Assembly: GCF_000016605.1 (NCBI RefSeq) | Contig: NC_009440.1 | Span: forward strand, 186,001-250,000 | DNA: 64,000 nt | Origin: Metallosphaera sedula DSM 5348 | GTDB taxonomy: Archaea; Thermoproteota; Thermoprotei_A; Sulfolobales; Sulfolobaceae | Direction of reading: 5' to 3' | In this document: positions 38,544 through 43,590 of the stretch, one piece after another | How the letters are laid out: every line of letters starts with the position of its first letter | Numbering within the stretch: position 1 is the stretch's first letter | Translations under genes and position numbers: made by a program | Notes under the pieces: model-generated | Told to the model about the DNA's origin: nothing | Seen by the model: only the letters and a program-made list of their open reading frames with translations | The model's database searches: none

Positions 38544-40370
38544 TCAAGACAGCGCCTTTTTTATGAGCTCTAGGGACTGAGGATTTTCGAGGGAGGATAT
38601 ATCTCCTAGATCTTTGTTGAGTATCGTGTTCCTTATGAGCCTCCTCATGATCTTCGCGTTCCTGGTTTTTGGCAGTTCAGGGACTAGTTTCACGATGGAG
38701 GGAGCTATTGCCTTCCCCAACCTCTCCTCAAGGTATTTCAGTAACTCCTCCTCGAGTCCAGTCCTAACCTCCTTAGGTACTGCTAGGCATATCACCTTCT
38801 CTCCCTTCGTAGGATCAGGGACACCAACACATGCACTCTCCACGATAGCTCGATGGGCATTGAGAACTGCCTCTATCTCCCCTGGACCTATCCTTTTCCC
38901 TGAGACCTTTATGGTATCGTCGCTCCTTCCCACGATGTAGAAGTAACCGTCCTCATCCTTTATGGCTAGATCCCCGTGAACCCAAACGTTTTTCCATCTA
39001 GACCAGTAGGTTTCAATGTACCTGCCTGGATCCTTCCAGAACCCCCTGGTCATTCCGGGCCAAACGCTCAGCACCACCAGCTCCCCCTCCTCGCCCGGAT
39101 TAGCAGGTTCGCCACTCTCGTTGAAGACCTCAGCCCTTATTCCTGGAGATTGCCCGTTAAAGGAGGAGGGCCTCATCTCCTTGACAACGTAGTTCCCCAG
39201 TATTCCTCCGGAGATCTCCGTGCCACCAGAGTAATTAATCACTGGGGACTCCGTAACCTGGGCAATCCAGTTCCAGCTCTCAGGATCTATGGGTTCACCG
39301 GTGTTCCCCACGACCCTCACATCCAGCTTCATGGACGGCTTAGACGACCTCAAGCTCCTGATTAGGCTGGCTGATAGACCTAGGACGTTTACCCTCAAGG
39401 TGTTCACGAAGTTTTCCAGGGTTTCGGGGGTTGCGTAACCGTCGAGGAGAGCCATTCTCGCTCCCACCATCAGAGAGCCAAACACTAACCACGGTCCCAT
39501 CATCCATCCCATGTCTGAAATCCAGGAAACACCCTCTCCTTTCCTCACGTCAAAATGGAAGTACATGTCCGCTGACGCCTTCACTGGAAAGCCACCGTGA
39601 ACGTGAACACATCCCTTTGGTTTCCCGGTGGTACCTGAAGTGTAAATTATCATTAGGGGACTCTCCGCCTCAGTTTCCTCGTATCCGTCTCCTCCTTCCC
39701 TGGTTAACTCCCTTAAGTCGTGATAATCCTTTAGCTCTAGGGAAGTTTTCAGGGCTATCTTTACGAGATTGAGTCTCTCCAGGTTCCTAGTCGGTTCCAC
39801 CCGTTTCCCCTTTCTTGTGTACCTATCTACAGTGAAGATTGCCTTAGCTCCGCTATCCTCCACCCTAACTCGAATTGGTTCCTCTCCATACCCTGAGAAT
39901 AGCGGGACAATAATCATCCCTGCCCTAGCTATCCCCAGCATAATGGGAACTATCTCAGCTGTCATGGGCATGTACACGGCCACCCTATCCCCTGGGGACA
40001 GCCCAGCTCTCCTCAACCAGCTGGATATGGATTTAGCCCAGCTCAGGACCTGGGAGCGACTGAACTCCTTAACTTCTCCCTCCTCATTCATGGAAGAGAC
40101 CAGAGTTTCAGGGGAATCATCCAGCTGATCTGTAACGTTTAACCTAGATCCTACGAACCACTTGGACCATTCTCTTCCTCGAGAGAGGTCCAGAACCTTC
40201 TCGGGTTTCCTCCTGAAATTAACCCCGACTCTTTCTAGAAAGGAAGGCCAAAAGGTTTCAGGTTCCTTCCATGTGAATTCCTGGAACTGATCCAGGGACT
40301 GGTTCCTTTCAGCTAACCATTTCCCTATATTGCTCTCTTCCCTCCATTCCTTGTCAGGCTTCCATATCAA
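38544..40370 (-). CDS. AMP-forming acyl-CoA synthetase (acetyl-/propionyl-CoA synthetase-like)
   Basis: A 608-residue ANL-superfamily ligase that activates a carboxylic acid to its CoA thioester via an acyl-AMP. Motifs: MIIYTSGTTGKPKGCVHV (ATP/AMP binding), WISDMGWMMGPW, YSGGTE, VHGDLAIKDEDGYFYIVGR and the hinge, then the catalytic lysine in PKTRNAKIMRRLIR. Length and the N-terminal SFLERVGVNF-like domain fit the acetyl/propionyl-CoA synthetase branch; the exact acid is not clear. It is the last gene of a five-gene operon (4-base overlap with the DUF35 gene before it), so it probably activates the substrate or recycles the product of the thiolase-fold enzymes. Confidence 0.88.
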   Translation of the reverse strand: MIWKPDKEWREESNIGKWLAERNQSLDQFQEFTWKEPETFWPSFLERVGVNFRRKPEKVLDLSRGREWSKWFVGSRLNVTDQLDDSPETLVSSMNEEGEVKEFSRSQVLSWAKSISSWLRRAGLSPGDRVAVYMPMTAEIVPIMLGIARAGMIIVPLFSGYGEEPIRVRVEDSGAKAIFTVDRYTRKGKRVEPTRNLERLNLVKIALKTSLELKDYHDLRELTREGGDGYEETEAESPLMIIYTSGTTGKPKGCVHVHGGFPVKASADMYFHFDVRKGEGVSWISDMGWMMGPWLVFGSLMVGARMALLDGYATPETLENFVNTLRVNVLGLSASLIRSLRSSKPSMKLDVRVVGNTGEPIDPESWNWIAQVTESPVINYSGGTEISGGILGNYVVKEMRPSSFNGQSPGIRAEVFNESGEPANPGEEGELVVLSVWPGMTRGFWKDPGRYIETYWSRWKNVWVHGDLAIKDEDGYFYIVGRSDDTIKVSGKRIGPGEIEAVLNAHRAIVESACVGVPDPTKGEKVICLAVPKEVRTGLEEELLKYLEERLGKAIAPSIVKLVPELPKTRNAKIMRRLIRNTILNKDLGDISSLENPQSLELIKKALS

Positions 40371-40792
40371 GTTCTTACCCTGAGTGGAATGCCGTATTCA
40401 ACAATTTCAACCTTTTTCCCGATTTCTGGAATTCCCTGAACAATTGCAAGAAGTCCACCGCTAGCTCCCTTGAACCTAACTAACCCCACCGTGATGGGTT
40501 GGTCCAATCTTCTGTCCGCGTTATCGTAGTATATTGTGGTGAAGCTGTCCAGGTAAGCTTCCTTAACCTCAACGTACTCGCCGTTCTCGACGAAACAATC
40601 CTCGCAGTACATTCTCGGCGGTACGTAAACCCTTCCGCACCTCGGACATTTCCTTCCCAGGATCTTCCCCTCCCTCAGCCCCCTGAGAAACTTTTCGCCA
40701 TCTGGCCCTGCCGTATAGACGTATCTTTCAACTTCCATGACGTCCTTCCACGTAACTAGCTCGTTTTCCCTTCCGCGCTTGTCCCAGGACAT
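40367..40792 (-). CDS. DUF35 zinc-ribbon/OB-fold acyl-CoA accessory protein, copy B
   Basis: A 141-residue protein. The N-terminal helix precedes a rubredoxin-like zinc ribbon, CPRCGRVYVPPRMYCEDC, and a C-terminal OB fold (YYDNADRRLDQPITVGLVRFKGA, then KVEIVEY). DUF35 proteins are obligatory partners of thiolases, HMG-CoA synthase complexes and the steroid aldolase Ltp2. It abuts the other DUF35 gene (end to start with no spacer) and shares a perfect 96-bp stretch with it. Co-transcribed with two thiolase-fold genes upstream and overlapping the acyl-CoA synthetase gene by 4 bases. Confidence 0.88.
   Translation of the reverse strand: MSWDKRGRENELVTWKDVMEVERYVYTAGPDGEKFLRGLREGKILGRKCPRCGRVYVPPRMYCEDCFVENGEYVEVKEAYLDSFTTIYYDNADRRLDQPITVGLVRFKGASGGLLAIVQGIPEIGKKVEIVEYGIPLRVRT
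40592..40687. repeat. 96-bp perfect direct repeat, unit B (within DUF35 copy B)
   Basis: Identical base for base to 41090-41185; it covers the zinc-ribbon segment. The flanking coding sequence of the two genes is clearly diverged. The start-to-start distance is 498 bp. Confidence 0.95.
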
Positions 40793-41290
40793 TTACACCA
40801 CCTCAAAGCACTCTATATCGTCAATGCTTCCTGTCCTTTTTTCAGCGGGTCTCCATCTGGCCCTCACAGTTTTTCCCATAATTGTCATGCTCTTCACGTC
40901 TTCGTAGGAACAGCATATTCTGTGGAACAGACCTGGATATACGTAATCCCTGGGAGATGACGGGAATAGTCTAATGGTTCCCACAATTTCTGGCTCCTCT
41001 AGTCTGTCCCTTGTCCATGAAATGAAGCTTGCCACGGCGGTCATAACAACTCCCTCATCCTTGACCTCAACCCATTGCGAAGTGGGATAGAAACAATCCT
41101 CGCAGTACATTCTCGGCGGTACGTAAACCCTTCCGCACCTCGGACATTTCCTTCCCAGGATCTTCCCCTCCCTCAGCCCCCTGAGGAAAGTGCTCAGAGC
41201 CTGGCCCGCAGTGTAGGAATACTTGGCCTGAGGTTTGTACGAAATGGTAACGTGTTCCTTCAATTCCTCCTCCTTAAGTGGATGAACCAT
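40793..41290 (-). CDS. DUF35 zinc-ribbon/OB-fold acyl-CoA accessory protein, copy A
   Basis: A 165-residue paralogue of the next gene. The N-terminal 34 residues lead into the same zinc ribbon (CPRCGRVYVPPRMYCEDC), and an OB-fold follows (VVMTAVASFISWTRDRLEEPEIVGTIRLF). The C-terminal ~60 residues differ from copy B and include MTIMGKTVRARWRPAEKRTG. It begins 9 bases after the stop of the first thiolase-fold gene upstream. Two DUF35 genes beside two thiolase-fold genes suggests one DUF35 partner per enzyme or a heteromeric complex (inference). Confidence 0.88.
   Translation of the reverse strand: MVHPLKEEELKEHVTISYKPQAKYSYTAGQALSTFLRGLREGKILGRKCPRCGRVYVPPRMYCEDCFYPTSQWVEVKDEGVVMTAVASFISWTRDRLEEPEIVGTIRLFPSSPRDYVYPGLFHRICCSYEDVKSMTIMGKTVRARWRPAEKRTGSIDDIECFEVV
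41090..41185. repeat. 96-bp perfect direct repeat, unit A (within DUF35 copy A)
   Basis: Identical to 40592-40687. Synonymous positions are also identical within the block, which points to recent gene conversion or a fused duplication rather than protein-level constraint alone. Confidence 0.95.
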
Positions 41291-41299
41291 GGTCTCACC

Positions 41300-42475
41300 T
41301 CAATTTCTCATAACCATGACCGTGGAGGCCTGCATTAGGTCACCCCACGCCTGGGCTACGCCAGTGTGAACTGGCCTTTTCACCTGCATCTTCCCAGCTG
41401 TTCCCTTAAGTTGCCAGTAAATGCTAATGACCTTCATTAGTCCTGCTGCAGCTATGGGGTTCCCAACTCCTAGAAGTCCTCCTGAGGGGCTACTGGGTAT
41501 ATCCCCGTCCTTATCGAAGAACCCTTCCTTCAGAAGTAGGGGTGCCTCGCCTCTCTTGGCTAGCATGAGGCCCTCCAGGTGATGAAGTTCCTTATAATCG
41601 AAGGGATCATATGGCTCCACGACGTCTATCTCCTTCTGAGGTCTCTCTATCCCTGCCATCCTGTAGGCCATCCTAGCTGCGTTCTCAAGGTATCTGGGAT
41701 ACGCAAGTTCCCTGTTGGGCCAAGAGGTGTTATCGAGGGTCCATCCAACTCCCTCAACCCATATGGGGGTATCAGTGTATCTCCTCGCAATGTCACCGTC
41801 CACGAAAACCATGGCAGCTGCCCCATCACTAACTGGGCTTACGTCTAGAAGTTGCACTGGCCACACTAGAACCTCGCTTCTCAGCACATCGTCCACGGTG
41901 ATTTCTCCCCCCAGTTGTGCATAGGGATTGCTTGCAGCGTTCCTCTTGTTCTTCACCGAGACTAGGGCAATCTCTTCCTTGCTCACCTTGTTCACGAACA
42001 TGTATCTGTGCATCTCCATGGCGAAGATCCAGATTAGGTTGGGGTTCAGGGGTTTCTCCGTGATTGGATCCCAGATGTACCTAAAAACGGCTTGGGGATG
42101 GGGCCTACCTGTACTCATCTTTTCCTCTGCCACAGCGAGCACTTTCTTGCACATCCCGCTGGCCACGTGGTACCATCCTGCAATGGCCGTCATGACCCCC
42201 GTTGCTCCTCCAACGTATACCCTGCTACTGGGTCTCATTACCCCTCCCGCTCCGTGTGCCAGGTATTCCCCCTTCATGTGAACTCCGTCGAAGGCATCTG
42301 GTGCGCTCCCAATTACCACACAGTCTATGTCCCTAAGTTCCAGGCCAGCCTCATCAAGGGCTCTCCTAGAGGCCTCCCAGGCCATTTCCTGTGGTGTCTC
42401 CAACATCCTCCTTCTGAAGGGTGTCATTCCCGCACCTATCGCCGCGACCCTCCTGAACTTTAGGTTGGTCTTCAT
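41300..42475 (-). CDS. thiolase-fold protein lacking the catalytic cysteines (SCP-x/Ltp-like), first
   Basis: A 391-residue thiolase-superfamily protein. It has the thiolase frame (VAAIGAGMTPFRRRM, DEAGLELRDIDCVVIGS), but the acyl-cysteine site, normally C-x-S-G near residue 90, reads GGATG (G90). The GHP histidine motif reads GNPIAAAG, and the C-terminal C-x-G site reads AWGDLMQAS. PYDPFDYKELHHLEGL is shared with its paralogue. It thus lacks the Claisen-condensation machinery and resembles the aldolase-type Ltp proteins that work with DUF35 partners. ATG 42475 is preferred over TTG 42523: it overlaps the preceding stop by 4 bases (ATGA). Confidence 0.85.
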   Translation of the reverse strand: MKTNLKFRRVAAIGAGMTPFRRRMLETPQEMAWEASRRALDEAGLELRDIDCVVIGSAPDAFDGVHMKGEYLAHGAGGVMRPSSRVYVGGATGVMTAIAGWYHVASGMCKKVLAVAEEKMSTGRPHPQAVFRYIWDPITEKPLNPNLIWIFAMEMHRYMFVNKVSKEEIALVSVKNKRNAASNPYAQLGGEITVDDVLRSEVLVWPVQLLDVSPVSDGAAAMVFVDGDIARRYTDTPIWVEGVGWTLDNTSWPNRELAYPRYLENAARMAYRMAGIERPQKEIDVVEPYDPFDYKELHHLEGLMLAKRGEAPLLLKEGFFDKDGDIPSSPSGGLLGVGNPIAAAGLMKVISIYWQLKGTAGKMQVKRPVHTGVAQAWGDLMQASTVMVMRN

Positions 42476-43590
42476 CTCTGCATCACCGCCACTCCTCCTG
42501 TGAACGTGGGAATTCCCCTCCAACTCGCCACAATGGCTGAACTCGCCCCCTCCCTCATGTACTCCACAGCGTCAAGTACCAGGGAGAGTCCAGATGCCTC
42601 TAGGGGATACCCCTTGGCCAGATGCCCTCCCTTCGGGTTAACTGGCAGGTAACTTCCCTCATGGAAATATCCCTCCCTGAACTTCTCCGCAACGTTAGTA
42701 ACACCAAGGGCCTCCACGTGTTGGAGCTCCTTGTAACTGTACCTATCATCTACGAACAGGCCGTTGACCTTAAGGGGTGACTCCAGTCTCGCCATACTAA
42801 ATGCCAGGGAGGATGCCTTTCTCGTGTAAAGGGCATCACCTAGCCTGGCCAGCTCCAGGTTGGAGTTATCCGTGGCAAACCCTATTCCCGTGATCCAGAT
42901 GGGCGTGTCGTTAAACTTCCTCGCGAAGGTTTCAGAGGCTAAGACCACGACCACGGCTCCGTCTACGGGACGTGCTATGTCCACGCGGGTCAGGGGGTAA
43001 ACAACAGCCTCTTGCGAGAGAACGTCCTCCTTAGACAGGAGTGAGGCGTGGGGTGCCCTACCAGTCTTGAGCCCGCTGGCCCTATTCTTTATTACAACCT
43101 CCGCCAAGTCCTCCCTAGACACTCCGGTTCTGTGCATGAACTTCGTCGCATCTAAGCCAGCTATGAAGTGATAGTTGGGGATCTTAGCCTCCCTAACGTA
43201 AACGGGATCCATGGCTAACTCCACGATCTCGGGAAAGGTGAGAATGTCGCTGGGTTTAGCGTGGGACTCAACCACCACGACGTCGGCTACTCCGGAGTTG
43301 ATCAACATGAACCCGTGTGCCAACCCCTGAAGTCCGTCACCTGCAACTGTCATCGTGGGTCTCATTGCTCCTCCCACGGGGTCAGGGGCAAACTCGTCTG
43401 AGATCGAGATGCCCTCCCAGAAATCCTCCTGGCAAGAGATGAATGCGTCCACCTGTTCCCTAGGGTTCATTCCACCTGCGTCGTAAAATGCTCTCTGAGC
43501 AGCCTCAAACATCATCTCCCTGAACGAGAGATCATGGACGTTAGTGGAGAACCCGTACCACCCGATTCCCACAATACCTACGTTCTCCAC
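42472..43590 (-). CDS. thiolase-fold protein lacking the catalytic cysteines (SCP-x/Ltp-like), second
   Basis: A 372-residue thiolase-superfamily protein and first gene of the five-gene operon. The nucleophile position reads TVAGDGLQG (A83 in place of Cys), the GHP motif is GYPLEASG (a tyrosine replaces His), and the C-terminal site is ASWRGIPTF without Cys. DDRYSYKELQHVEALG matches the paralogue. In mycobacterial Ltp2, a thiolase-fold retro-aldolase of steroid side chains, active-site tyrosines replace the thiolase residues, so the tyrosine here is suggestive. The start is GTG at 43590, 25 bases after a GATTTTAAA promoter element, so the operon mRNA is probably leaderless. Confidence 0.85.
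   Translation of the reverse strand: MENVGIVGIGWYGFSTNVHDLSFREMMFEAAQRAFYDAGGMNPREQVDAFISCQEDFWEGISISDEFAPDPVGGAMRPTMTVAGDGLQGLAHGFMLINSGVADVVVVESHAKPSDILTFPEIVELAMDPVYVREAKIPNYHFIAGLDATKFMHRTGVSREDLAEVVIKNRASGLKTGRAPHASLLSKEDVLSQEAVVYPLTRVDIARPVDGAVVVVLASETFARKFNDTPIWITGIGFATDNSNLELARLGDALYTRKASSLAFSMARLESPLKVNGLFVDDRYSYKELQHVEALGVTNVAEKFREGYFHEGSYLPVNPKGGHLAKGYPLEASGLSLVLDAVEYMREGASSAIVASWRGIPTFTGGVAVMQR

Follow-up and report, generated by a model that had tools for sequence, protein, structure and literature searches.

Concerted evolution of a zinc-ribbon block in adjacent DUF35 genes of Metallosphaera, most probably by recurrent gene conversion

How do two neighbouring genes come to share a stretch of DNA that is identical down to its synonymous sites when the rest of their sequence has drifted apart? 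The question arises from two adjacent DUF35 genes, called g1 and g2 here, on the minus strand of a 64-kb stretch of the Metallosphaera sedula DSM 5348 genome (2,191,517 bases in all). That whole stretch is the window that we analysed, and coordinates refer to it unless another source is named. The first gene, g1 (40793..41290), encodes a protein of 165 aa, and g2 (40367..40792) encodes one of 141 aa. Both proteins score above the cut-off for PF12172, the ChsH2-type zinc ribbon (zf-ChsH2), and the CxxC...CxxC signature of the ribbon is present as CPRC and CEDC. The OB fold of g2 (PF01796, OB_ChsH2_C) also exceeds its cut-off, and the best PDB sequence match of this protein, SSO2064 (3irb), extends over the full length. 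In g1 the ribbon is followed by an OB-type region that Pfam does not score, and the OB fold is assigned from the predicted fold only. This g1 model has 3irb as its best structural match, and its top matches are DUF35 subunits of thiolase complexes.

Both genes belong to a cassette with conserved neighbours. Two thiolase-like genes, partner 1 (PRK06065 family, 41300..42523) and partner 2 (PRK06066 family, 42472..43590), lie at higher coordinates on the same strand, and an AMP-binding acyl/acetyl-CoA synthetase-like gene (38544..40370, minus strand) overlaps the end of g2. The two DUF35 genes sit side by side across most Sulfolobaceae, and the cassette of thiolase-2, thiolase-1, g1 and g2 is conserved out to contigs of Jordarchaeia and Freyarchaeota, which are Asgard-related archaea. 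Every thiolase-like pair that we found adjoined DUF35 genes. This gene neighbourhood suggests a thiolase-fold protein as the putative binding partner of g1 and g2. By eye, the usual catalytic Cys and His-Asp-Cys motifs seem to be absent from the thiolase-like proteins (41300-43590; EPYDPFDY occurs in the first, for example), which are perhaps closer to Sal/Ltp2-type aldolases or to inactive partners.

The first-pass annotation of this locus described an exact 96-bp direct repeat joining the two DUF35 genes, and the sequence bears this out. The longest exact run is 96 bp (40592-40687 and 41090-41185). It lies within a match of 98 out of 99 bases between 40592..40690 in g2 and 41090..41188 in g1 (both minus strand), in direct orientation and 498 bp apart, with the sole mismatch at 40688 in the g2 copy and 41186 in the g1 copy. 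Each copy encodes the same 33 residues, FLRGLREGKILGRKCPRCGRVYVPPRMYCEDCF, which comprise a helix end and a rubredoxin-like zinc ribbon. In the predicted g1 structure, the block takes in the last part of a helix (residues 26-40) together with the ribbon and stops just short of residue 72, where the first OB strand lies. As had been claimed, the exact run stops sharply on both sides, and the identity takes in synonymous sites while the rest of the two genes is diverged. The flanking codons of g1 and g2 have 35-38% nucleotide identity, and the probability that all 33 ribbon codons coincide, given identical residues and local codon usage, is ~10^-13.

Within the 64-kb window, this is the sole exact direct repeat of at least 40 bp with copies inside 6 kb. 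As a genomic control, we searched 20 further 20-kb stretches of the M. sedula genome (with ~5 kb masked in one of them) and found two other exact repeats, both of a different kind: a 42-bp tandem array inside a gene and a 62-bp repeat in a self-repetitive ORF. We also considered whether the ribbon module had been shuffled in from elsewhere in the genome and rejected this origin. The 99-mer has just two full copies in M. sedula; no other full copy was found in its own genome or in the genus Metallosphaera, where the extra matches reach only 22-24 bp.

The annotation had pointed to synonymous sites in related genomes as informative, and they are. We compared six Metallosphaera genomes, among them M. 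javensis and M. yellowstonensis, and each carries an exact within-genome repeat between the g1 and g2 ribbons, of 87-104 bp. Within genomes, 64 of the 65 fourfold sites are the same in the g1 and g2 ribbons. Between species, the corresponding values are 0.31-0.34 for the ribbon and 0.32-0.35 for the flanks, and the ribbon block is 73-88% identical. Additionally, the two copies change together: 33 of the 39 variable ribbon columns carry, in every genome, the identical change in both genes, compared with 0 of 234 in the flanks, and the six discordant columns all lie inside the first 12 nt. Sequences that are identical within a genome, yet saturated at fourfold sites between genomes, argue for concerted evolution and not for sequence constraint. 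Elsewhere in the family and the order, the g1 and g2 ribbons of other genera match at only 0.51-0.76 and are not homogenised.

Selection on the DNA or RNA itself, by way of a regulatory element, a structured RNA or an antisense gene, could in principle keep the copies alike. It would account for identity that reaches synonymous sites, and antisense ORFs do overlap both repeat copies. However, between species the block lacks the conservation beyond coding constraint that such an element should show; its fourfold sites are chance-like and have diverged in the same way as those of the flanks. A constraint on a fixed sequence also cannot yield copies that change jointly, genome by genome. By the rule set out in the first-pass annotation, copies that stayed identical over the long term in all relatives would speak for selection of this type; the rule is inapplicable to a block saturated at fourfold sites between genomes. 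Because of this saturation we reject constraint at the DNA or RNA level, which we judge very unlikely.

Recent gene conversion, or a swap of the ribbon module between paralogues, was the reading originally offered for the repeat. There is strong support for conversion of this module, but not for a single recent event, as the pattern recurs in all six Metallosphaera genomes. An older single event, in which one conversion in the Metallosphaera ancestor was followed only by strong purifying selection on the protein, would draw on the fact that the ribbon protein is well conserved, but it cannot account for the synonymous changes that the copies share. The copies within a genome differ at 1, 0, 5, 0, 0 and 0 positions, against the at least 12 to 21 differences that separate them from the nearest other species and that would be expected after a single ancestral conversion (Poisson P per genome 1.5e-4 to 8e-10). 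With so few differences in each genome, every one of the six terminal branches must have seen homogenisation at least once. A single ancestral conversion is refuted by the concerted synonymous change in every genome, and we regard it as extremely improbable.

Phylogenies of the block and of its flanks disagree in the manner that repeated conversion would produce. In the ribbon-block tree, the copies pair by genome, and the AU test rejects a clade made up of g1 copies only (p 6e-5); the block is only 99 bp, and support is low except for the within-genome pairs. In the flank tree, g1 is split from g2 at 100/100. An independent, recent tandem duplication in each species would agree with the adjacency and common orientation of g1 and g2, but it conflicts with flanks that form two deep orthologous groups and with a two-thiolase, two-DUF35 cassette that reaches Jordarchaeia and Freyarchaeota contigs. 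Deep flank groups and ancient synteny show that the duplication giving rise to g1 and g2 is itself ancient; they refute recent tandem duplication, to which we give next to no probability. The sequence comparisons make it very probable that g1 and g2 undergo recurrent gene conversion, and hence concerted evolution, confined to the zinc-ribbon block of these adjacent paralogues.

In all six Metallosphaera genomes the block runs out behind the Phe codon next to the last zinc cysteine, with a right border that is the same in five of them and 2 bp longer in the sixth. The left border lies no more than 3 bp from the first block base in five genomes and 12 nt later in the remaining one, G003. The loss of identity over the first 12 nt in G003 fits ordinary conversion with variable ends and not a site-specific cassette. 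To read the direction of transfer, we used residues that clearly separate g1 from g2 in other genera (block positions 2, 13 and 25). At these diagnostic positions Metallosphaera is g1-type in both genes, except for one edge residue in the g2 of G003, and good conservation of the g1 ribbon extends to distant archaea. Both observations point to a founding transfer that probably ran from g1 to g2, with the g1 copy as the probable donor type. In each of the six Metallosphaera genomes, the ribbon has a higher GC3 than expected from codon usage (z 1.25 to 3.63), and block GC3 also lies above that of its flanks, unlike in the non-homogenised genera (Mann-Whitney p 0.001, relatedness ignored). This excess hints at GC-biased conversion, which could explain it, although the sample is small and other causes are possible.

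We propose that two ancient, adjacent DUF35 paralogues undergo recurrent non-reciprocal recombination limited to the 99-bp block encoding the ribbon. The founding conversion would date from before the Metallosphaera radiation or from its early phase; with g1 as the probable donor, it would have replaced the g2 ribbon and left a short identical island inside otherwise unalignable DNA. Ordinary homologous recombination, presumably RadA-type with short-patch conversion, may then have reused this island, with new mutations in it being erased or copied to the partner gene in each lineage and the flanks evolving independently. That the borders keep their place would follow from the end of homology at these points and from selection, which likely acts against longer tracts, as these would swap gene-specific OB-domain or N-terminal residues. 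Recombination in Sulfolobus acidocaldarius needs no more than 30-50 bp of homology (PMC5684531), and a review documents short, discontinuous conversion patches in this species (PMC4471258). By these measures, an island of 99 bp is reusable and the diverged flanks are not. More tentatively, and with rather less than even confidence, we suggest that a 99-bp island with no usable homology beside it constitutes a self-sustaining, GC-biased conversion hotspot across the whole genus. If so, the locus would be a natural gauge of the shortest homology and the tract length of archaeal conversion, and gene fusion would be an occasional by-product.

Crossover or single-strand annealing through the island would delete ~498 bp and fuse the start of g1 to the end of g2. 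The first-pass annotation predicted a single fused gene of this kind, and one is apparent in G009, a sister genome of Metallosphaera that groups with the six Metallosphaera genomes in the neighbouring-gene tree (100/100 for all seven). Here, one DUF35 gene (G009:C21, L090 5124-5564) replaces the two, and the operon is otherwise intact. Its protein has a g1-like start (MTLHPLKEEELN...YSYTAGQALSK), the ribbon and a g2-like end (VENVDYVEV...IPLRVRVK). This gene is placed mid-contig and has a clean frame; its spacing to the thiolase-like gene is the usual one, and it overlaps by 4 bp with the synthetase gene, which flanks it as it does g2 in M. sedula. The C-terminal half of g1 was not found in the G009 assembly.

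The same sequence could have been made by an assembler that used short words and skipped the 399-bp loop between identical repeats, an alternative that concerns the fusion only. Such a collapse predicts exactly what is seen in G009, the assembly is in 20 contigs, and in the only other genome compared from the genus of G009 the thiolase gene is also missing. Against an artefact stand the mid-contig position, clean frame and normal spacing to both neighbours described above. Additionally, assemblers with words longer than ~105 bp would not collapse the repeat, and the loop is missing from the assembly, though so short a contig might be dropped. We consider an artefact unlikely, but far from negligible. 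Since assembly collapse would give the same sequence, we hold a genuine g1/g2 fusion to be likely and not certain.

Recurrent conversion might also be aided by selection, if the two ribbons bind equivalent surfaces of a two-thiolase complex, so that matched ribbons are favoured and cells with a conversion prevail. This idea would add to the explanation by conversion, not replace it. One complex is known whose DUF35 zinc finger is packed against the thiolase-fold subunit and gives the cleft of that subunit its shape (PMC12329534), and the best structural matches of g1 come from thiolase-fold complexes. The constant presence of the thiolase-like pair beside the DUF35 genes fits as well, and prokaryotic genes with long-lasting concerted evolution mostly code for members of complexes (PMC6053082). 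However, all four genes are also kept by related genera whose ribbons have diverged, which means that matching is no general requirement, and we regard a contribution from such selection as possible but doubtful. Homogenisation of the whole operon was rejected, since the neighbouring thiolase-like pair has no conversion tract: after trimming of the physical overlap, no exact word longer than 20 bp was found between the two genes (9-11 bp in Metallosphaera). Longer words in this pair, and a 106-bp g1/g2 word in M. yellowstonensis, come from overlapping open frames and were set aside.

Long-lasting, domain-limited conversion has been described for mtrA-1/mtrA-2 of Methanococcales and Methanomicrobiales (Wang et al. 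2015, PMC4632066). Like these, g1 and g2 are neighbouring archaeal paralogues in one operon with a single domain homogenised, and copies from the same species cluster. Old paralogues, identity in one segment only, tree conflict and recurrence are all found here, and the pair appears on these grounds to belong to the same type of domain-restricted concerted evolution. In mtrA-1/mtrA-2, homogenisation covers all of the MtrA domain, and a fusion gave the second gene a different transmembrane part, whereas in g1/g2 the tract is ~99 bp, the two genes are DUF35 paralogues throughout, and the remainder diverged by ordinary evolution. As in tuf, amoA and other surveyed genes (Wang and Chen 2018, PMC6053082), conversion recurs over many species and affects both synonymous and non-synonymous sites; unlike the g1/g2 block, those cases are homogenised over nearly the full gene. 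The archaeal cases of that survey come from methanogens only, with none from Sulfolobales and none in DUF35 genes. In the open-access literature that we searched, we found no earlier report of gene conversion in Metallosphaera, Sulfolobales or DUF35 genes. While the type of phenomenon is already known from mtrA, the g1/g2 case is apparently new for Sulfolobales and is notable for its small tract, its six replicate lineages and the apparent fusion.

In architecture, the g1/g2 cassette resembles SSO2064 (3irb), the HMGCS/thiolase/DUF35 complex (6esq, 6et9), Ltp2-ChsH2 (6ok1), PhlABC (5m3k) and Sal-Shy (9myr), with a ribbon plus OB fold and thiolase-like gene neighbours. It differs from the known DUF35/ChsH2 complexes in having two DUF35 and two thiolase-like genes, and in its homogenised ribbons. 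The locus offers a clean natural case, in a thermoacidophilic crenarchaeon, of one small domain being homogenised over the lifetime of a genus as the rest diverged. With its sharp edges, its six replicate lineages and the apparent fusion, it lends itself to testing minimum homology and GC bias in archaeal conversion, and it could also serve for asking whether sharing a zinc ribbon matters in thiolase/DUF35 complexes. DUF35 trees built on the ribbon may mislead.

Both repeats from the control stretches lie within reading frames. An exact 42-bp unit occurs in ~11 tandem copies, in frame within an ORF (QGGESGGQRVESRV), at L111 12037-12500 (G000 ~512,037). The exact 62-bp repeat (L120 12109-12170 and 12568-12629; G000 ~1,512,109) has its copies 459 bp apart in one internally repetitive ORF and is possibly another small conversion tract.
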